Below are positions 20,162 to 59,374 of a stretch of 64,000 bases of DNA, one piece after another (position 1 is the stretch's first letter; each line of letters starts with the position of its first letter). The notes under the pieces were generated by a model. It made no database searches, was not told the DNA's origin, and saw only the letters and a list, made by a program, of their open reading frames with translations. Both the position numbers and the translations under genes were made by a program. This DNA comes from Nymphaea colorata. Its lineage: Eukaryota > Streptophyta > Magnoliopsida > Nymphaeales > Nymphaeaceae. Location of the stretch: positions 18,864,040-18,928,039 of the forward strand of contig NC_045145.1 of assembly GCF_008831285.2 (NCBI RefSeq). The letters are read 5' to 3'.

Positions 20162-22266
20162 TCGACAACAGCCGCCGAAGGAGAGACAATCTTGAGATTT
20201 GACTAATACTATCTATTTGGGATAATCAACAAGGTATGGAGAGAACCCTGTTCTCGTCAGAAGCTCCAGCAAACCTCCTTACCACGCAAACACGAAGACT
20301 AGAACAGAGGAAAGGACCGAAGTATAAGTAATACAAATAATACGAAGATATTGGTCGATGGGAGGAGCCAGGAAAATCCCCAACTTTCGTTTACTCTGTC
20401 CCAGAGAGAGGCGGGTTGCCTGTAGAAGAAGAAAATGGACGGGGAAACACGGACTGGAGAGAGGTTAACTTATAAAAAGTATAAAGGAAACAATCAAAAT
20501 CCTAAATCCATGGAGCTTGCAAGTTGCAGAAAACGACGACGACGAGGCGCCGGCGCTCCGCCCTCGATCAAAGAGACGACCTTTCCCGCCCTTCCAGTCG
20601 CTGGAAAACGATGGCGCCACTGGTATTCTTGCAAAATAGCGCCCGCAGGAACCTCTCTGTATGTGCGCCTCGCACGAGCTCCTGCAGCGCGCCCTTTCCC
20701 TTTCATTTTTTTTTATTTCCTTCGAGTTTGGGATGGTTTTATAATAAAATCATCTTTCTAGCTTGATCCACTACTCGTAGGTAATTAACATATAAATCTT
20801 CTCTTTATTGTTATTGACGATATGCTCCCTGATGTTTGCACTTTAAAGATGGATTTTCCTTTTCGTATTGTATCCTTTATTTATATTAATAATTTCTATT
20901 ATGATATCTAGCACTTACCTGAAAAACTATTATGCTCTTGTGACATTTCAGCGGAAGAAAGACAGAGAACATGATTATCTTTAGAAACTCACAGTAAAGA
21001 GAAAATTTGTCAGAGGTCAAACTAAATTAAAGAGAAAATCTCCTTTCCTAACATGTTCTACATTAGGGTTTGTAACATTGCCAATCACTGTATGTTTGAT
21101 AGATTACTTGCAAATTCAGCATTCATTTATGGTCACATGAGCTAGGCAGGACTTAGTTGAGCGACTCACCTAAAGTGCCCTATAAATTTGGTAGAGTAGA
21201 TAAAGAATCCGCTCTCTAAAAGAAAGAAATTTTTTTTATATGATGTGTGTTGCCAAGATGTGTTTTGACATGAAAATTTTGCCTCAGAGAATTGAGTAAC
21301 TCAACCCTTTGTTTGGAAAAATATTGTAGTTAGGAGAAACAAAACCTGCAAATAGATCATGACATTAGTACTCATCTTTAAGCAAAATATTATGTTCACA
21401 GTGCAATTCAAAGTAGATATTTTTACATGATCACAACATCAATCGGGTTATATGGAGTTAGTGGTCGTTTGACAATAATAACAGAAATGTTACCATTCCA
21501 TGCAATTTGCTCCAAAATTGGGACGGGGCAGATACATGAAACACCTTTAAAAGTATTCAATGAATCTGCTTCATTTTTTAGGGTACTTGAATTCAGCTTT
21601 TTAATTGGGTCTAGTAATTAGTTCACAACTTGGTTCAATTTGATTTAGTTTTGAGTGTTCCTTGGATTTTGAAGCTGTAAATGAATCGATTGAGGCGATT
21701 TAGTGGGTTTGTCTATATGTGAGCCCTGGGTTCGGGTCCAAATCTCTGATCAGCTCATGTACTCTACTTGGACATTACGCTTGCACTCCAGTCGGGTCAA
21801 ATCAGCCCACAACAAATTTTCCAGAGATCCAACAGCAACAATGCTCTTCGTGAGGAGAACAAAGAGAGAGAGAAGGAAAAAAAAAAAAAAAAAAAAAAAT
21901 TGATGCCGATTTGAATTCTTATGGTTAGTTATATTTTGGATCCATATTTTGAGTGTCATTATCCATTTAACTTTTGGATATGACTTATATTTAGATCCAT
22001 ATTTTGAGTTGGATTCAGAACTAGATTAACCTGTTCACCTTATTTGTATCGGATCAAAAAACGCTGCGATATTTATTGAGTTATGGAATTCAATTATTCT
22101 AGTATATTGATCTTAGTATTCGTTTATGAGGTTTTCCTGAATGTGGCAAGGAGTCAGCTTACATTAACAAATGATCTATAGCGCATGTAAAATCAGAGGT
22201 CCTAAATTTGATAAGTTGAATAACAGTTTTATGCATATGCATTGGGTACCCAAGACCCAAAGAATC

Positions 22267-22397
22267 AAATTGTTTCATGAAACTTTGTGAATCATTCAGA
22301 GTAGAGATGTGGAGTTCTTGGAATAACTAAATTGTTTCATGAAACTTTGTGAATCATTCAGAGTAGAGATGTGGAGTTCTTGGAATAACTAAATTGT
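22267..22397. repeat. Perfect 62-bp tandem duplication
   Basis: Copy 1 is 22267-22328 and copy 2 is 22329-22390, with a 7-base start of a third copy. The unit begins AAATTGTTTCATGAAACTTT. I see no mismatch between copies, so the event is recent. It is not in a gene. Confidence 0.95.
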
Positions 22398-31817: not shown

Positions 31818-32409
31818 TAATTCATTTGCATTTCCATGAGTACTACTGTACATCTCTCCACCGACCCACCTTCAAATAAGGTGGACCAAGATATTCTGTT
31901 TCTTTTTTCCCTTTTTAATTGAAAGGTTATGTTTATCAAACCGATGTGAGATCAATACAGTTCCGTGGAAACGAATGGTGGACACTAAGAAGGGACGTGA
32001 AGGCTGAGTTCATGTTAGGCAGCTGTAAATGCTGTGATTGCTTTACAGAGTTTATGGAAAAGAGACAAGGTTACGGATGAAAGGATTTCTCAAAAGAAAA
32101 GAAACTTAAAAAAATGTTCCCTTCACAAAGCTGTCCGGCGGGGCGCTGGTTCCAAAAAAGATGAAGAATGAAGAACACAAAGCACCAAACATACTTTCTC
32201 TCGGGATCTTCAAAAGAAACCGAAACATCCAATTAAAAGAAAGGAGTTCTTCTCTCTTCTGCGAGAGCGGAACGCGACCAGTGGGGAATGGCAGGAATGT
32301 GGGATATCTAACTCGCTTCTTTACATGCAACCAAAGCTGCCATTTTCATCTGTTGCTGCTGCGGCTCTTGTGTCAGTTAAGTTCTCCCTTTTCCCATTAG
32401 TGGACTAGT

Positions 32410-32617
32410 ACTTGAGCTTTGGGAGTATTCTCGTCCTTCACCTTTCTTTCCTTGCACTGTTCGTTATCCTCACACTTTTTTCCTCGCTGTTCCTCCCTCT
32501 CTCTCTCTCGAGAACTTGAGCTTTGAGAGTATTCTTGTCCTTCACCTTTCTTTTCTTGCACTGTTCGTTATCCTTTCGCTTTTTTCTCAACCTCTCTCTC
32601 TCTCTACGTGGGTGGCT
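32410..32617. repeat. Imperfect 104-bp tandem duplication
   Basis: Copy 1 starts ACTTGAGCTTTGGGAGTATT at 32410 and copy 2 starts at 32514, period 104. Both end in a CT-rich run. A few substitutions and a small length difference separate the copies; the right boundary is approximate. Confidence 0.8.
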
Positions 32618-32977
32618 CGCTTCTTTTGCTGCGGTTACTTAGCTGCGGAGCCTTGAGACGTGCAGCACATCAGATTTTGAACTTGAAATAAAGCCAAAAG
32701 AACAAAAGGAAAAGTAGTCTAGAAGGGAGGGAATGTGATGGAACGGATTGGACTGGTGCTTCTTTTTCCCTGATGCTCTTGAGAAAAAATTACGATTTAC
32801 GATGGCGGTAGGGTGGCCACACCACCACACTTCACGGCATGCGATGGTTCCTGTGCAGCTGTGCTAGAGCATCTCCATAGAAGAACGATTGCTCATCAAC
32901 GATACATCACTGCAGCATCTGGAATTTGCTTGAACCCCCTTCATCTGCATTACCAACGTGTCTATAAGTTCTTTTGA

Positions 32978-33069
32978 TCTACATGTTGAGGGAATCCAGT
33001 GACGTCTTTCAGACTCTGTTAGTTCTACATGTTGAGGGACTCCAGTGACGTCTTTCAGACTCTGTTCGT
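32978..33069. repeat. 46-bp tandem duplication
   Basis: Units 32978-33023 and 33024-33069, each starting TCTACATGTTGAGGGA. I count two mismatches, so the event is recent. Both lie in the spacer downstream of the BIG GRAIN 1-like gene. Confidence 0.9.
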
Positions 33070-42491: not shown

Positions 42492-45400
42492 TCATGTGAT
42501 AATTCCTGGTTTGTTATGTACATTTTTCCCGTTCTTGCCTGTCAATTTGACATACTGCTTGGATGTTGGTGGTGTGTGTGTTGCAGCCAGCTCTCTCACT
42601 CGTACAAGGATTTGTGCCGGAATTGGTATAGAAGAATGCTTCCTCGAACTCTTGAACTGTGGATCAAATAAACTTTAGTTACAGGAGTAACTTTAACAAT
42701 TTTTGGTCGCCAGACACTGTAACACCACCGTAACAACAGAACGTGAAACTGCCAAATATTACTTCACCATGAAAGACAGGCCCATTTATCTGTAATGCAC
42801 ATTAAAGGAACTCACCGCTCTGTCCGTCAGTGCTTGAGCACTTGCCCTCAGTAGGTTCCTCCATTTATCCTACATATGACAACATTTTGCAGTCATTCAA
42901 TACGATCCAGCTCCAGGATACACAGAGTCATCATACGGCTGAGAAAAACCTACAAGTTGGCTTTCCAAACTCCATAATTGGCTGGAATTGTTTGCTTGAA
43001 CTTCAGGTTCAGTCATGGTAACAAAAAAGGCCTCTATCCAAAGTACAGATTTTTTCAAATGCTTCATAACTACAAGATTATGAACAGACAAACCTTTAGA
43101 TCAACGGATGTACGGTATGCACATGATGCAAATGCAAGCCTTTTGATCTCAGACCATCTTCCAGCTCCACAGCGAGATACACCTTCAACAAGCCTCATTA
43201 CCTCAGATAGAGTCCAGGCACGATGATGTTTCCGTCTAGTCCCACCTTTTGCAGTCGGGACCGTCAAAGGATACTCCTCCAGATCCTTTACTGGATCTAG
43301 TTTTGTAACCTCCAGACCTTGCTGTCTGCGTCCCAAATATGGGACCAAGGCAGTTTCATTGTTTGAAGCTTCAACACCAGCCTAAAGGAAACATTAGATC
43401 AAAGTTTCAGGTGAAAGCTAAATGTCGTTTAGTTTAAAAGCTAATTATGATCATAAAGCTACCAAGAGGCCATAAAAAGTAAATGATTCCACCATGAGAT
43501 GACCCTCACATTTCATCTAGAACTCCATACTCAAAGATGTGACTTCATAAAAGACATAAAAACACAAAAAAATGTCCTATCTTTCATATCATTTTGTAAA
43601 ACAAGCAAAAATATTATCATATAAAATTCCAGGTTCTTGTAATGTTTTTCGCAACATTTTAAACTTTTAAAGTATGAAAATATTGCTATCTTTCATAAGA
43701 TTTTGTACTACAAGCAAAAATATTATCACTAATATTCAAGGTTTTTGTAATGTTTGTGATAACATTTTAGACTATTACAGTATAAAAATATAACCAATGA
43801 AAAAACATACATGTATTAAAGATCATAAGCTGACAGTGTAACACACGAATAGGTAAAATGGTAAAACACCAAAATTTCAACAGATGTGGAATATGCAGTC
43901 AGAAATAGAGCCCGTGGGGAATATACCTCACAGCAAAAAAATTCATATATAAAGATATAAACAACGACATGTACATGTGCTTGCTAACAATCAAATACAA
44001 CGAGTCTGGCAAGGAAAAACATAAGTTCTAATGATCACATGAAAAGTAAAGTGCTTGAAATCTTTAGCATCAATTTATGGATATTTTAGTGTGTGCCTAC
44101 ATGTCAATGCTTTAGTATCAGTGCCTCACTACAAGTAAAAATAATATTGCAGACTACCCATAACACATCGGATTGATGTTTCAATAGCAAAAATCCAGAA
44201 GACAAACAGGAGAGCTGTGCCCATAAAATGATGCCAGTTAATTTTAGTACTTTCTGTTGCACAGGAGCTGAAAGAGCTTTCGGCTTCCATGATCTATTGT
44301 AAGCTTCGGCATCTTGTCGCCTACTTCGAGTTCCACGGGCTTTTTTAACTAATGTGGCAGACATGCCATTTTGATGCTTCTGCAATTTTTACACCACCGA
44401 AGGCATCAGGAAAAAGAAAAAGCAAAAAGAGATAACTACATCATCTGTAACGAGAAAACAGCGAGAAGGTAAACCATATGGAGCACAGCATTAACAGGCA
44501 TATGCCCATTTTTAACGAAGTATCATGCAAAACACTGTAACAGAATAAGTGGGGCAATTGTATTGCCTTCAACCATTGAGACCTAGCACTAATAGTCACG
44601 CTAAAAAATGAAAAATGGAAAGTGAGAAAATGACAGAGAAGTTAATTTAATATTTTAGCAGCTGCCACTGCTTTTAATAGTTTATGTCCTTTTGATAAGT
44701 TCCAATAGAAAGCTATGTCACCTGGGTGCTTCTAAATGGCCGCCGCACCCATGTCGACACTGGTGCTTCTCTAACACAGCACATTCGGTTCAGTCAGCTG
44801 AACCAGGTCAAAACTGACCACTTTAAATGAACACATAACTAAATTATCTTTAATACAAAATTTATATATAAATATAAATGAATAAGGCTACTAAACAGTT
44901 AAATAACTATGTAACAAATCATTTATATACATATACACACACACACACACATATATATACACACCGTCACTGCACCCGCACCTAACCTTTTTCTGAAAAA
45001 TTGCTGCATCTGCACCCGCATCTGCACCCACACTCAGGTGACATAGATGGAAAGTTTAAATCCCTTTGATAAGTTGATAACGACTAGACATTCTAACGAT
45101 TTAATTCATCTGCCTAAAATTTGTGAATCATCCAACATAAAATTTTTACATTATATTGGACCGCCAAGAAAAAAACACCAAAAAATATGTTCACAAAAAA
45201 TTATTGAAGTCCACATCAGCAAATTTATGTATCAAGGGAAATAAATAATTATCCACAGCACACAACATGTTCATGCAGCTTTTCTGATACTACTTCCAGT
45301 GAAATTTGCAATCAAAGAACAACAAACAAACACCTCAAGTTTGAAAATAAAATGACATACCAGAAGACCCATGAAATTTTTTCTTGGACGACCTCTTCTT

Positions 45401-48400: not shown

Positions 48401-51078
48401 AAACAGAAATAAATGCAAGCATTGTCAACACTCCAAGATTCACTAGTCTCCAAATCTCTAATATATTTGCTGCAGTTTTTTTTTGTTTAACTTCCAGGCA
48501 AATAAACAATTAAATTGAACTAAACTTGAACTCTTATATTTACATGTGGGTTGTTTATATGGAAAAAATAACACATAAAGAATATCCAAAAATAATTGCT
48601 AACATGCTGAACTCTTGTAATTTCTCTACCATAGAAAACCTTCTCACTAACTCCCTCATCAACACCCTACCATTTCATCTCTCTCTCTACACAGCCACAC
48701 CCACAGTAACTTCCACTCTCCATCTTTGTTTTCTACTCTCCCCATCTATTAATCTTTTTATCTCCACCAGTTTCTCATTTGAATACAAGAGAGCACCAAC
48801 TATTCTATCTACTTGAGATCCATATGTGCTTTTATGTAGCATCAAGTGGGCAGACTTTACACATTTCTCCCTTCTCCAATAGGCACTACCATATTTTCTA
48901 ATTGAGAACAGCCACACATTCTCTCATTATCTAGAGGCTAGGCATGCATTAAGCATGTGAAATGTCATCTTTCCCCTGCTGAATCACCTGTGGTACCAAT
49001 TATTTCATTCAGGCAATCCACACACTATTGAATGGTGAGGTGCGAATTATTTGTGCTATGTGCATGTCAAACCAAAGAAAGGGTGAGAATGAAATATTCA
49101 TCAATGGAGGACGCTTCCAAGGGCAAGCATAACAAAGAGTAAGTTCATCCCAAATAACATATTCAATAGAATAAATTTGTTTCATAATTCATTTCTTCTC
49201 AAAGATTATTACTGTATAGTGTATGTCACTTACGAAAAATTGTCACATAAATTTGTTATTTGTTTTATGTAATATGTATAAAAAAACTTTGACAACTACA
49301 TGTGAAATTTAGGCCCTACTAGAGTTTCATGCCTAATGGGCAATGGGATATGTAAATCATAGAGAAATTTAAATTTGTTTTATGTAAGATCATATAGGCA
49401 CGATTAGATATTGAAATCACAAGCAGCATTTAACTCCTCAGTCTGTGCAGGTTGATCTGCCAGTTAATAGCTCACTTAACTAATGATCCTAAATGAGTTA
49501 AGCCCGAACAGCAACAATCTGTTCATTACGTCAATAGACCAGTTGAGTTTTCAAATGTTTAACTCATTTAACAGAGTTGAGACGAGCTTTGCATGAGCTG
49601 AACCAACCAATTCAAAACAGGACCTACATGATCGAAGCACCAGACCTTAGTGAGAAAGGTTACATGGGATATTCATGCTAGCGTGCAAAATCAGATGACA
49701 GCATTAATAACAGGAGGATGGAAACTGAGAACAAGACCAATGATAAGTCGACAACAAACATGAGAGAGAGTCTTGAGGCAAACGAGAAAACAGAAAAATC
49801 ATGATGATAAGGACTGTGTTCATAATACAGCAATAATAACAAGAAGAGGAATGACAATGATGTTGATGATGATTACGGTCTAGTTTTGGTATGTAGAAAA
49901 AATTTTCAGAAGAACTAGACACAAGAGAAATCTGGAAGTTATCAAAACGATGAAAGCCAATGACAACCATTTCAGAAATGATAAAGAGATAAAGAAGATG
50001 CTTATTGTGATTTCCTTTGTAACCACAAAGCCATCACTTCTAAAAGGTTATTTATCTAACACATTAACAAAAAATCATAATGATTAAGAAAATGTGGCCA
50101 AAGTGACACTCATACGATACAGATGAATCAACATAGTAGGAAATCCCACCTAAAATGTTTTATCCAAATAAAAAAGGTTAATGATAAGGCTCGAATTGAA
50201 CTATAGATGAATGGGGTGGTGCAGGGGCGCATTAAAAAGATCAACCGGAGTAACAATTGATAGAAATCCTATCGACTTGTTTTCATGAGTATGGGACAAT
50301 CAATAAGCGAATAATAACCTGAGAGCCCATCCTGTATTGTGTCTAACAAATCCCGCTGGTAAAACAATGGACTTAAGAATGGAAAAGAAGCTCAGAGAAT
50401 GATAAAAGAATGGATACGGTGGAGAATTCTCTCCAACATTTAAAGCTGATGAGCAAGTTAAATGGTGAATCCCCATCATCTGTAGAGAAAAACATGGGCA
50501 AGTTCTCGACCTTCAATTTCAATTCTCGTCGACGGGACGTTGATAACACCCACAAACATATACATAAACACACACAAAGCTAAAGAACAAAGAGTACGCC
50601 CTGATTCTTGCATTGCAAAATATAGCTGCTTAGTGAAGAAACGATCAAGAACTTAAAACCGACAGTTGTTGCATGATACGTAATTTTATACTCATCCCGG
50701 TGCATTGCTTACTGCAAAAAAAGCAGAAACTCGTTACACCATTAAATGAAAAAAAAAAAAAAAAGATTTCCTCCACAAGCATCTTTCAACTAAAGTACCG
50801 AAAGTCACAGCACAAAGTTCATAAAAACTGAAAAAGGAAAAAAGAAGACGAGAATTGAGTCACTAATAAAAATTGCAGTTTCACCGAAAGCTAAAAAAGA
50901 AAAAAAGTGTCATCAAACCAGCGGAGGAAGAAGAAATTACCCGAACAAGTTTATAAACAACCGGGTCGGCAATCGGCTTCGACGACGCCAGGGACCCATC
51001 GGTCCGAACTACACTCTCAACGTCGAGATGCTTCCCGCCACTCCCAACTTCGCCGCCCGCCATTTCTTCCATGGCCAT
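42492..51078 (-). CDS. TRFL: TRF-like single-MYB (telobox) DNA-binding protein
   Basis: Nuclear protein of the plant TRF-like family (Arabidopsis TRFL3/TRFL6 type), whose C-terminal MYB binds telomere-type DNA in some members. Exons in transcript order are 50941-51078, 47913-48087, 46961-47019, 45361-46338, 44251-44379, 43094-43381, 42816-42869 and 42492-42656, joining in frame to 661 residues. The N-terminal two thirds are acidic, Ser-rich and probably disordered, with basic patches (GAKRLRKPTKR, SRLRRGRPRK) resembling nuclear signals or AT-hooks. The MYB/telobox covers about 546-598: HHRAWTLSEVMRLVEGVSR, GAGRWSEIKRLAF, YRTSVDLK, then DKWRNLLRAS after the family's conserved intron. The tail resembles TRFL ends (IPIPAQILVRVRELA). 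Start MAMEEM follows an in-frame upstream stretch that is not family-like. Weak points are the donor after exon 2 and the short exons 3 and 7. Confidence 0.88.
43577..43795. repeat. 109-bp imperfect tandem duplication in TRFL intron 5
   Basis: Units start CTATCTTTCATA at 43577 and 43686, both followed by ACAAGCAAAAATATTATCA and a TTCTTGTAATGTTT-like segment. The several mismatches and small gaps show an older duplication. Confidence 0.75.
44713..45046. mobile_element. hAT-like non-autonomous element (MITE), 334 bp, in TRFL intron 4
   Basis: The left end reads CTATGTCACCTGGGTGC. The reverse complement of the right end starts CTATGTCACCTGAGTGTG. The flanking 8-mers are ATAGAAAG (left) and ATGGAAAG (right), matching at 7 of 8, as expected for an aged hAT target-site duplication. 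Subterminal sequence is rich in GCACCCGCA-like motifs and the middle is AT-rich. No coding capacity. A Mutator-like origin (9-bp sites) is less supported by the flanks. Confidence 0.6.
44935..44950. repeat. (AC)8 microsatellite within the hAT-like element
   Basis: Short AC run followed by an AT run inside the element in TRFL intron 4. Confidence 0.8.
47421..47870. repeat. 250-bp-period imperfect duplication in TRFL intron 2
   Basis: ATTCAAGGGCAACATCAGTA near 47434 recurs 250 bases later as GTTCAAGGGCAACATCAGTA. It is followed in both copies by TAGGTTATG, CAGCAAGTG/TAGCAAGTG, ACACAAGATTTGT and CACTGAT.TTG. The second copy fades out near 47870, just before exon 2. Confidence 0.7.
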
Positions 51079-53897: not shown

Positions 53898-56800
53898 TTA
53901 GTCAGACTTGTCACGATTTACTGCTGCAGCATCAGAAACGTTCACTGGCTTTTCAGAGGTTCCTAACTGTTGCAGAAAGGATTAAAATAAGTCAACATTT
54001 AAAGGAAAAGGAACAAGCGAGCACAGAGACATTGGAAATGCAGTCTCCCAGGGGCTCATACTAACAAATCATGGAGCAATAGAGCAAGTCTAGAGAATCA
54101 TGGATCATAATTTAGTCATGACTACAAAGAAAGGTGTATTTTCACGTGCGTGTGCATGTGCTCGTTGGTGCTCACTCATGTACATGATCCTATCATATAG
54201 ACACTAGAAAGTTATTCCTGGGATAGTCCTATGCAGAAGGAGAATCAAACACAGACATGGACAGGCAATATGGCGTTTAGCAATTCCTGAACTCAAGCCC
54301 CATAAAGGTTCTTGAGAACATTAATTCATAGTTTCATATCATATGCAACTTGGATCTTATGCACCATTCCAGCTGACAAGCTTTGGACACTTGAAACAAG
54401 TAGACTCGCCCAACCATAAGAAGTTCCCGTTGCCTGATCAATGGTGTTGTTAATGACGGGACAACTTCCACTAGTTGTGACGCATATAGCAAATGCTCAT
54501 CATCTTCTTAGATGCTTCAGTATCTAAAATCCATAACATGAATTTCATGGCCCATTTTAGTCATGGATCAAAAGTCTTAAGTATAGAATATTTTAATAAT
54601 TTTCTCATTTTTTTCTCAAGAGTCAACAAACGGTGCCTAACTGCATAAACAAATTTTATAAAATCCACAAGTTGCAGAGAGTTAGAGTATGAATGCAAAA
54701 AACATGTGGTTGCAGACCAAGTAAATATAACCAATGAAGACAGCTTCAAAATAACAAGGGCAAGACCAAGCTGTGTTATGTGAAAGTCATAACTTGCAAA
54801 TATTCAATGATGATATCTCTTCAGGACACAAGGAGGGCACTAGCAGATATTCATCTTACATATTTGGAACATCCTCAGTGGGTCTTCTGCTTCTACCATA
54901 AGCCAGACTTTTTAGAGCAGAGAAGTAATGGAGAAAGATCGGTAAAACTAATTTTGTTTACAGGTATCAGCACAAGATTAATCACCAATCGTTGACTTCT
55001 TGAGATTTTCTTTTCTAATAATTTTTTTTTGTTTCCCTTTAACTAGCAAAGCGGAGATTTCCATTAAAATGTTACAAATTCTGTTGTAAATGAAGCACTT
55101 GCACAAATACAAGCAATAGTGTAAAGCATCATAACCCTAGTCTTTTGAGGAATTTCAAGTCACTAACACGTAACTTGGATAAAGAAATGAAGAATGGATC
55201 TTTTGAGATTGCCATATTTGGTGGAAAAAAAGAGGAACAAACACAAGGTGAAGGATCCAAGGTAAGCAGGGCTGCAGGGCATTGGAAAAAAAAAAAAGAA
55301 ACAATAGTTTATATTTTATTCATAAATTTACAATTTATCCAACCAATTGTTACTATAAATGTTTAAATTAAAATACCATAAGTGCAGGAAGCAGTAGCTA
55401 AAGCATGCCCAAAGAAAGGAAACAAAGAAAGAGTATTTGCTATGTGAAAAGGTAGGAAAGAACAGCCAGGGGAATAAAATGCAAACACAACACACAAGGA
55501 GTATAAGAGATCACTAATTTTTTTAAAAAATGAGTCCCAAGCAGATGCAACAGGACAGTGCTGCCGAGGGGGGGAAATAAAATAGCAGCTGTCAGTTCAC
55601 AGGAACTTAAACATTTGATAAAGCAGAAGCTATCAAATCCTAGTTTTTGTAGCTACCAAGTCTTTAAGGTTAAAATGCTAAGTCCATCTCCCAATGGAAA
55701 TGCAAAGGTAAGAGGGCCTCACTTCCATTTCCAAATGAATTAGCTAACGAGGAAGCTGCCATCTCCCAAAGGACCATCATCAGTTAGTTTAACAAACATT
55801 TTACCAAATGCACATACTTGCATCCCTGATACTAGTTTCAAAACAAAGCAACAATTTCTTAGACGGGATAACTGCATTACCATTTACTGTTTCCACAATA
55901 TTTGTATTTCTCCTACTATGCCAGAGGAAAGCGCATTCTTTAAGGGCAAGTTTGATAGCAGGGAAGAATTTAACGTGATAAATTTACCATAGTAAATTTT
56001 TCTGAAAAAATTTACAGGATGAAATTTCTCCCTCTTCCAATCTGAGTTCCTGTTTGATGCACAGGAAGAATCTAACCTGGTGAATTTAACTATGTTTGAT
56101 GCACAAGGCAGTTTTTTGCAAGGTAAAATTAACCCTGTTTGATGCACAGAATAGAAAAATTGAGAGACTTTTTCAGAACTGTTAGTAGTAGTTGTCTTTT
56201 TTCCTTCTCCTCCCCAATTTAGACCTCCAACTCGATCCCTAGAGCTTGTTGGTTCACCTATATTGCCAGCTTTTGCAGGCTGCAAATGGAAGCTAGGGCT
56301 CAACGGCGGTCTGGTATTGCCTTAGCTTGTAGATGTGCCATATGCCACTGCGGCAGAGGAACCAAGTCGCTTGCTTTTTTTATGCTACTTTGCCAAATCT
56401 ATTTGGTGGCACATTTCCACTTGGTTTGAGGTTCCAAGAATTCCAACCAAGGATGTCTATATGTGCTGAATTATGGTGGTGGTTTAAAGGAAGATTTTCG
56501 TGTGTAGAAATTAAAAAGTGCTGGCGTCCACTTGAGAGGGGCAGCGACGATGTGGCATGGTTCGGCAATGGTGGCCACTTGTTGGCATACTGTTAATGAT
56601 TTGATCTCTTGTGAATCTCAGCTAGGCTGAAAGGGAACTCCTGCGAATTAGTGTGAAATGTCGGGTTTCTTTTCTTAACTACGGTAAAATTTAGCTTGTT
56701 GCGGTGTCTAGAAAATCTGAAAGCGTCATTTATGTCTATTAACAATTTAACATCTAACGGAGAGATCAAACGGGCTTTCTGCCTTTATCTAAAGATTTAA

Positions 56801-59374
56801 ACACGAGTGATGGACAAGATCCCCATGCCGCCAAGGCGCAAAGGGGAGCTTGAGTCGGTGAGGGAGTCCGTGAGAAAAGAGCGAGGGATGGGGGAGGAAG
56901 GAGGTGGGTCTCGCCGGTACTGGCTGGTGAAGACGGAGGCCGGCGACTGGTCTTGGGCGGATCAAGCGACCAACGGTGGCGTTTCTCGATGGGACGGCGT
57001 AAGAAACACGCAGGCCCAAGGGTTCATGAAGGAGATGAGGGAAGGCGACTTATGCTTCTTCTATCACGGGCGGCAAGGCCAGGGAGGTTGTCGGAGTGAC
57101 CAAAGTCATCAAGGAGTGGTATCTCTGCGAAGGCAATGACTGAGGAGCGGTGGACCTGGAGGCCTGTGGAGTGCAGCGAGAGAGGAGCCCTTCCGTCGAC
57201 TGTGAGGGTGTAGCGAGAGAGAAGAGGGGAGACATTGAGAGCCCTAATGGCTCTAAAAAATGTCTCCACCAAAAAGTCGGTCCTGTGAGGACCGACTTTT
57301 TCACGGGCGAAATTTCACCCGATGACAAAGTAAATTTCGGGTGAAATTTCACTGTGTTTGTTGCTAAGAAGGGTGAACGGGTGGAATTTCATCCTTTCGT
57401 ACGATTTTCAACCGATACACAGGATTTTTCTTGTGCATCAAATGGGCCCTAAATGTTTTTTCTGCCACTAGTTTTCTTCACAACTTCCAAATGATGTTCT
57501 AGTTTGTTAGTGACCTTCAAACCCCTGCACACAAACCTTTTACATCCACCAAATCCTCCAGGTTATGAATCTGCAATATCTATCAGCAAATAAATATTCT
57601 GAAGTAGCCCTTAGTGCTTCCTGACCTTGTGGGTTGCCTAGGAAGACTTTCTGTGAACTAACAAATCCTTAAAGTTGCATTAACTCTCCAAACTAGATCA
57701 AAATACATGCAGAGTTCTTAAGTTAAGCTATCCTAATTTGATGGTTATACAAGAATGACTCAATCACGGTTTGTCAAAAACTGGCGTAGGCCAAAATACC
57801 ATGAATTGTGAAATTCTTAAATCCATTTATAATCATGCAACATGGAAGTCTTCCAAGTTCCAAGCTAAGAATTATTCTGTAACAGTACTATGTGCAATAA
57901 ACAGTAACTACACAGGATAGCAGTCAGCACCTACTGCACAGGATAGCAGTTAGCACCTATATTGTCAATTGGTCAACCGCTTGAACTAGATGGTACTACA
58001 TCGAAGAGATCAAATATATATATATATATATATATATAATGAATAAGAAGAAAAAATGAGCAGAGAGACAAAACAAGAAACAACAAAAGGGGAAGTTGTT
58101 CACATGAATTTCACGGTAAGAAAGGGCAGTTCATATTCATGTTGCATCTTATGCAGTTAAAAGCGGTCGCGGGTCTAGGCAGAAGAACCCATAAAAGGAC
58201 GTAACTTGCGCTTAAGCAGTTCTGCTCAAAAGAAAAAAATGGAGAAATAAGAGAAGGGGCGTGAGGGGAGGCAAAGTGGGGGTGTTGGAAAAACTGCACC
58301 GCAGTCAATATATTAGAAGATAGAACAAGCAACAAAAAATTTTAAGAATAATATTTATTTGGCCGACTAGGTGCCTCGAACTAGGCGTCTAGATTACCGC
58401 CCAGTGCCTAGCTATACCTTTAACTACTACAGTAAACCCAAACGTAAGTAGAAGGGAAGATCTTGCATGAATGGCCCTCGTCGACTATTAGAAAAGCAAA
58501 GTCAACCTTCAGAAAAAAAAAGTAAATTCCGTTGTTTTTCTTCAAAAAGGATAAATATGAAAACTCAACAGAATACTTGTGTTTTGACAGCAAACAAATA
58601 GAATAAGTAGAATTTCAGATTCCTAAAGATACCATTTTCAGCCACTTTAATGTTTCACATCCTTACCGTCTTGAACTGTTGAAATTCAAGGGAAATGACC
58701 ACTGACCCGTTAACAAAAGTTCAAGAAATCTATCAGGAATCAACACACATCTCATATGTGGGTTAATTCAATGTTCAACTAAAAATCCACGAAAGGAAAA
58801 CCCTTTCTTTTTGCTCGGCTGCAACAGCAAGTCTAATTCAAATGCAAACACCAAACGGCGACAAAACCAACATACGTCAACTCATGAAATACAGGCAATT
58901 TCGTGCATAGCCAAAACCACAGCGAGGGTTATTGATTTTTAAGATCGAATGAACAAAAATCAGATGAACACGAAAAATTATGTCCCATGGCATGAAAAAG
59001 AAGACATCCATGAATACCTGTGCTGGGTGGGCGTTTGTAATACCACCCGTGGCTTGAGAAGAAGGCCGATAGGGACAAGCAGGTGGCGCCCTCTCCGGCT
59101 TCCTGTACTCCCAACCGAATAGTTTATACACCCTCGCCTGTCGGAAACACGAATCCGTTTAGACAGCATAGAATCGGAAAGAGAGAGAGAGAGAGAGAGA
59201 GAAAGAAAGGTTACCATTAGGAAATCGAACAGGAGGGGTAAGATATTGACAATAGGCACCAAGAAAAGTGGCAGCAGACATGCCAAGCAAACCTGCAAGA
59301 TATCCCCGTCAACCTATATCAGATAGCAAAAAGAGAGAGAGAAGGAAAGAGAGAGAGAGAGAGATTCGCACCAT
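53898..59374 (-). CDS. Small membrane protein, UPF0729 (C18orf32-like) family
   Basis: A short hydrophobic protein resembling the MVC-type start of human C18orf32, an endoplasmic reticulum and lipid droplet protein. That relation is by memory of the family pattern and is inference. Exons in transcript order are 59372-59374 (ATG only), 59215-59292, 59018-59137 and 53898-53966, giving 89 residues, all junctions phase 0. The N-terminus [20 protein letters not shown] is one membrane segment, followed by the conserved block [20 protein letters not shown] and a polar tail ending AVNRDKSD. Introns 1 and 2 are 79 and 77 bases and largely CT repeat on the coding strand. Intron 3 is 5.05 kb and hosts a transposon. 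Least certain are the ATG-only exon and the link across the long intron. Confidence 0.7.
56807..57176 (+). pseudogene. EVE-domain (THYN1-like) gene fragment, broken
   Basis: Intact THYN1-like proteins carry an EVE fold, a YTH/PUA relative thought to read modified DNA or RNA. Here the frame from 56807 contains the N-terminal half of the domain: [45 protein letters not shown]. Near 57068-57071 one extra base shifts the frame; similarity continues as [12 protein letters not shown] in the next frame. A stop at 57141-57143 then interrupts the AVDLEA segment. The C-terminal third is absent. The purine-rich lead ([12 protein letters not shown]) may be captured host N-terminus. No intron is visible across the fragment. 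It lies wholly inside the TIR element, so capture by the transposon is the best explanation. Confidence 0.8.
57271..57301. repeat. Perfect 14-bp inverted repeat with 3-base loop
   Basis: AAAAAGTCGGTCCT, GTG, then its exact reverse complement. It lies just downstream of the EVE fragment in the right part of the transposon and would form a strong hairpin in single-stranded DNA or RNA. Confidence 0.9.
57308..57351. repeat. 13-bp inverted repeat next to the hairpin
   Basis: GAAATTTCACCCG (57309-57321) and CGGGTGAAATTTC (57338-57350) are exact reverse complements. Related GGAATTTCATCC sequence follows near 57381, suggesting subterminal repeats of the element. Confidence 0.8.
57911..57960. repeat. 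26-bp tandem duplication
   Basis: CACAGGATAGCAGTCAGCAC at 57911 recurs at 57937 with one substitution. In the last UPF0729 intron, outside the transposon. Confidence 0.8.
58014..58038. repeat. (AT)12 microsatellite
   Basis: Pure alternating AT tract in the last intron of the UPF0729 gene. Confidence 0.85.
59179..59202. repeat. GA tract forming the body of UPF0729 intron 2
   Basis: Reads CT on the coding strand, inside the 77-base intron 59138-59214. A matching tract (59331-59363) fills intron 1. Confidence 0.85.
59331..59363. repeat. GA tract forming the body of UPF0729 intron 1
   Basis: On the coding strand this is a CT-rich polypyrimidine stretch directly after the donor of the 79-base intron that follows the lone ATG. 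Confidence 0.85.

Follow-up and report, generated by a model that had tools for sequence, protein, structure and literature searches.

A non-autonomous PIF/Harbinger element of Nymphaea colorata carrying a broken EVE gene fragment, with an apparent donor elsewhere in the genome

Introduction

How does the broken 5' part of an EVE-domain gene come to lie between the ends of a transposable element? The question is raised by a segment of 1506 bp in a 64,000-nucleotide stretch of Nymphaea colorata DNA (contig NC_045145.1, positions 18,864,040 to 18,928,039, hereafter the window). The original prediction, made from the sequence of the window, saw here a Harbinger-like transposon that had captured a THYN1-like gene fragment and come to rest inside an intron. 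The account that we consider very probable is that a PIF/Harbinger element took up EVE DNA from a locus on C4 and inserted at the present locus.

The nearest recognisable gene, found by eye and with a crude codon score trained on the window's own frames, is a Myb-like gene on the minus strand, which we take to be TRF-like. Its coding sequence appears to start at 51078, and the exon 51078-50941 connects in frame, through GT/AG, with that from 48087 onward; a weak Myb match at 43070-43381 (23.6 bits, just below the cut-off of 24.4) would belong with them to one minus-strand gene. The element lies about 4.9 kb upstream of this ATG, and its intronic position is thus unproven: it would hold only if the gene had a long 5'-UTR intron. 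The window also contains short duplications of 91-95 % identity at 22260-22383 (62 bp), 32407-32586 (76 bp, spaced 104) and 32973-33064 (46 bp).

The element and its repeat family

The predicted boundaries, with TAA at both sides, turned out to be exact (Table 1). The outermost bases read GGGC from 55944 and GGGCCC up to 57449, and the terminal inverted repeats (TIRs) pair without gaps, the left one being degenerate. Judged alone, these outer ends are weak evidence and not conclusive, since shuffled windows often hold comparable pairs: a GGG...CCC pair with matching TWA duplication at 10/13 or better occurred in 12 of 100 dinucleotide-shuffled windows, a comparable pair at 9/13 or better in 42 of 100, and a PIF-core pair in 14 of 300 shuffles of the window. 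A subterminal inverted repeat (56053-56072 and 57423-57442, 18/20 identity) was equalled by none of 60 shuffles of the element ends. The 64-kb window holds no second copy of the element.

Table 1. Features of the element and its flanks (window coordinates)
Feature	Position	Strand	Remarks
Non-autonomous PIF/Harbinger element with gene fragment (putative Pack-PIF)	55944..57449	+	ends, target-site duplication, repeat family
Left target-site duplication, TAA	55941..55943	.	
Right target-site duplication, TAA	57450..57452	.	
Left TIR GGGCAAGTTTGAT	55944..55956	+	10/13 identity to right TIR
Right TIR GGGCCCATTTGAT	57437..57449	-	compared with left TIR and relatives
Left arm, family repeat, 277 bp	55944..56220	+	at least 29 other places in the genome
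Three TTTGATGCACA subterminal motifs (56053, 56095, 56138)	56053..56148	+	spacing 42-43 bp
17 nt at left junction, outside the family arm and not clearly from the donor	56221..56237	+	
Cargo from C4:9901582-9902621	56238..57163	+	88-90 % identity; alignment to donor
Donor upstream DNA inside cargo	56238..56809	+	alignment to donor
EVE coding fragment, codons 1 to ~118 of 176	56810..57163	+	2-nt deletion and stop
Right arm, family repeat, 290 bp	57160..57449	+	at least 10 other long places; 4-bp overlap with cargo match
Three back-to-back hairpins, right arm	57226..57355	+	DNA folding

What settles the element as real is the repetition of both arms elsewhere with the same ends. The whole element was searched against the genome (407.8 Mb, 783 contigs) with 40 of 660 candidates scored; copy numbers of the family are therefore lower bounds. 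The search returned 47 rows, one of them the element itself: the left arm recurs in at least 29 places at 82-90 % identity, the right arm in at least 10 long matches (some partial) and 4 short ones, and the remaining rows comprise one hairpin match and two cargo matches. The possibility that no other copies would share the ends is thereby refuted; as had been anticipated, they resemble this one in their ends, most are bordered by perfect 3-bp duplications, and their interiors differ.

From these matches a sample of 19 places (L024-L042) was drawn up, and both ends could be located in 13. When these 13 relatives and the present element were compared (plus strand, E 1e-8), element positions 1-277 and 1217-1506 were each matched by at least three of the 13, and the interior, 278-1216, by none. 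The left end reads GGGCC[AC]GTTTGATG in 11 of the 18 relatives in which it was located and is best preserved in L037 and L041 (GGGCCCGTTTGATGCACAGGAAGAATT). Perfect 3-bp duplications flank nine of the 13 two-ended relatives, counting L028, whose left end was reset by eye (eight otherwise), and the other four show one mismatch; the perfect ones are TAA in four cases, TGA in two, and TTA, TAG and CAA in one each.

Five open frames from relatives, all fragmentary, were searched for protein domains, two of them without a match. DDE_Tnp_4 (PF13359) fragments were found in L024 (7.6e-12) and L040 (1.5e-11), and a Myb_DNA-bind_3 (PF12776) ORF1 in L035 (1.1e-10), that is, fragments of both the DDE_Tnp_4 transposase and the Myb/SANT ORF1 expected of autonomous PIF/Harbinger members. 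The TAA/TAA duplication is of the 3-bp kind usual in this superfamily (TTA or TAA), and the TIRs are of the type GGGCCYGTTTG by comparison with those printed in PMC2213677 and the available part of PMC6327408. By its sequence features the family is thus classified as PIF/Harbinger. It begins like ZmPIFa GGGCCCGTTTG (PMC6327408); the first 11 bases of the ZmPIFa TIR, GGGCCCGTTTGTTT, given in Table 2 of that paper, equal those of the L037 and L041 TIRs, and the rest differs.

Of seven relatives singled out for an unmatched interior, that of L029 was searched (757 bp; 799-1555, C3:2388498-2389254). It partly matches elsewhere (24 rows including short matches), at 91 % in C8:23424314-23424833 (query 214-735) and C13:14944802-14945168 (326-681), and L029 may represent a second capture in the family.

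Subterminal motifs and hairpins

As to the repeated subterminal motifs that had been noticed, all four exact copies of TTTGATGCACA in the window fall inside the element; with one mismatch allowed there are 7 copies against 2.82 expected. They are probably binding sites of the transposase or ORF1 protein. Among 19 left arms, this element's counted, 11 hold three copies in register (at most two mismatches) and most of the remainder retain one or two, which led us to reject a nested insertion as the origin of the three left motifs. The left end is also duplicated 102 bp inward at 82 % (55950-55986 and 56052-56088). A 20-base motif scan of viral contigs gave no match, and a literature search with the motif string returned no plant-transposon paper, as judged by title.

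The right arm contains three hairpins, and the region 57200-57449, folded as DNA, reaches a z-score of -7.61, with none of 200 shuffles folding equally well. Right arms of relatives have low folding energies too, these being raw energies from RNA parameters, without a shuffle control.

The cargo and its apparent donor

Among the 40 of 660 candidates scored, the cargo DNA matches one other place, C4:9901582-9902621. The open frame there is intact, with 179 codons (176 from the ATG) in a single exon, and its product covers the full EVE domain (PF01878, 130.9 bits, profile 1-145). It is the apparent donor, an intact EVE gene of the kind that the original prediction had looked for elsewhere in the genome. 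When the donor EVE protein was searched against the genome, with all five candidates scored, the matches were the donor (one row), the fragment in the element (two rows) and a broken relic on C6 (two rows; C6:16301100-16301428). Compared with the C4 gene together with its 3' flank, the relic shows 76 % DNA identity (L051 = C6:16299000-16304000, 2104-2633), and no arm matches were found in the 5 kb around it; nor did the arms match the 9 kb surrounding the donor at E 1e-4. Just upstream of the donor gene lies an open frame of 212 codons (L023, 2776-3414). A LINE or retroelement relic had been suggested there by eye, but the frame has no Pfam match and none is claimed.

The EVE fragment in the element is genuine (PF01878, profile 1-50 of 145, E 8.4e-17, 62 bits against a cut-off of 23) and it is broken, as had been supposed, by a 2-nt deletion at ~57066/57067 and a TGA at 57141-57143. 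EVE homology beyond 57163 was considered and rejected, the 3' stretch being family arm. The cargo lacks ~137 bp of donor sequence near 56529, and its upstream part measures 572 bp where the donor has 684 bp. Since the donor is a single exon, introns cannot tell a capture of DNA from a retrocopy; the upstream DNA taken along in the cargo fits capture of DNA.

Upstream of the coding region, cargo and donor differ at 43 of 535 positions (JC 0.085) and by 8 indel events; in the coding region they differ at 17 of 354 (JC 0.050) and by the single 2-nt deletion. Of the 17 coding changes, 12 are non-synonymous or create a stop, and the cargo-donor comparison gives no sign of selection on the cargo. 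At little more than half of the upstream value, the divergence of the coding part agrees with constraint on the donor and neutrality of the copy, as would be expected if the cargo had decayed neutrally. Plant substitution rates of 5-7e-9 per site per year would place the split, as a rough guide, at about 6-9 million years.

The label THYN1-like is doubtful, as the closest solved structures are proteobacterial: in a PDB search, four chains, all of them bacterial (E 1.3e-10 to 1.2e-8), outrank THYN1 (1.9e-4). The top chain, PSPTO5229, is presumably from Pseudomonas, a gamma-proteobacterium, and two of the others we take to be alpha-proteobacterial, in each case from the prefix. The better of two matches in a search of genome_contigs was an alphaproteobacterial MAG (66 %). 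In the available part of PMC7641849, most EVE proteins of higher plants fall into an alpha clade and those of some plants are nearer to the gamma/metazoan type; the present one is likely an alpha-type plant EVE.

Probable origin of the EVE segment

For the very probable account, in which a PIF/Harbinger element acquired the C4 DNA and carried it to the present locus, the following course can be proposed. A non-autonomous element would have exchanged its own interior for ~0.93 kb of the C4 EVE locus, with copying in the direction from C4 to the present locus. The new element would then have inserted at a TAA site of the present locus, where the cargo would have decayed neutrally. The duplication and the relatives suggest cut-and-paste movement in trans, with transposase and ORF1 supplied by autonomous relatives. 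As to the manner of uptake, granted this account, the odds lean slightly towards template switching in gap repair: excision would leave a gap, the broken ends would copy from the unlinked EVE locus, and they would then be rejoined. At the right junction, donor ...GGAGG(C) is joined to arm (C)CTGTGGAG, with a CTGT patch in both. The junction traces are slight, amounting to 1-4 shared nt on the right and, on the left, 17 nt not clearly assignable to either source.

The uptake could instead have occurred by fusion, two family members having inserted on both sides of the 5' part of EVE and then moved as one by their outer ends. Catoni and Gisby put this model forward for Pack-TYPE elements of every superfamily and give a maize Pack-PIF as an example (section 9 of PMC8903248), but for the present element we think it rather unlikely. 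In BLAST comparisons the closest match of the left arm is L032, which has a right arm of another type (72 %), and this ranking suggests mosaic arms from two subfamilies. The trees do not support such a split: they allow both arms to be grouped with L025, L026 and L034, as for one progenitor, although the trees are weak (2 of 16 inner branches starred for the left arm, 3 of 11 for the right). Because of the weak left-arm tree and the divergent right arm of L032, a single progenitor of both arms is permitted but not demonstrated by these comparisons. A left-type unit in direct orientation within the right arm (57341-57367) could be read as a footprint of fusion, matching two reference units at 19/27 (0 of 1000 shuffles) and 18/27 (5 of 1000); right-arm matches in several relatives cover the same stretch, however, so that it is probably ordinary family arm. 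Moreover, the 9 kb around the donor show no arm match, though insertions there may have been lost. On the strength of the junctions, the armless donor and trees that do not divide the arms between subfamilies, gap repair is mildly favoured over fusion of neighbours.

Accounts that dispense with uptake by an element fare much worse. A duplicated EVE segment may have entered, on its own, an element already in place whose interior was lost, and relatives such as L025 do have an interior that is absent here; but this requires an insertion plus a matched deletion, and the alignments reveal no duplication at the cargo borders, which makes it very improbable. Still harder to credit is a long-standing EVE gene or pseudogene of this locus that transposon sequence later came to flank or interrupt. 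EVE relics are not confined to elements, as that on C6 illustrates. Here, in contrast, the cargo lies between the arms and is truncated at both, homology to the donor ends at the border of the right arm and within 17 nt of that of the left arm, and the duplication and TIRs lie outside the cargo. As for an effect of the captured piece, the transduplicated EVE start beside the three hairpins might yield small RNAs that act in trans on the intact gene, whose product is presumably a reader of modified bases; this we regard as highly unlikely.

Relation to known elements

The element is non-autonomous and holds host coding DNA between its TIRs, with a donor elsewhere; by these sequence features it is classed as a Pack-PIF. 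Capture of the Harbinger type, thought less familiar when the locus was first noticed, is better documented than supposed. Pack-TYPE elements are described for each of the main plant superfamilies, that of PIF among them (available part of PMC8903248), and transduplicated sequence in grapevine PIF elements (available part of PMC2528002), so that the kind is already known; the word 'Harbinger' does not occur in the main text of a gene-capture review (PMC13317346). Gisby and Catoni (2022, PMC8903248) describe Pack-PIFs in maize and rice, which are likewise non-autonomous PIF elements with TAA/TTA-type duplications and a gene fragment between the TIRs. The cargo of the maize examples in section 9 of that paper, 163 bp and 58 bp, is smaller than the present one, and the maize copies have multiplied, whereas one cargo-bearing copy, with its duplication, was found here among the 40 of 660 candidates scored.

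Grapevine Pifvine-3 is also a PIF carrying sequence common to host exons and introns; according to the available part of PMC2528002, its additional sequence forms a 5' region, at most 3.5 kb long, that is distinct from the regions of ORF1 and transposase. Unlike in Pifvine-3, no transposase or ORF1 region remains in the present element. In Medicago (MtPH-A6-4/MtPH-E, PMC2213677) the MtPH-E TIR, GGGCCTGTTTG, is close to that of the element, the repeat unit is 60 bp as against a motif spacing of 42-43 bp here, and the main text does not contain 'captur'.

For annotators the locus is a caution that this EVE frame is not a gene. Beyond this, it offers what appears to be a clean single capture of the Harbinger type, in which one genome contains the element with its arms, relatives that bear transposase, and also the apparent donor in intact form, so that the junctions can be compared directly with models of capture.
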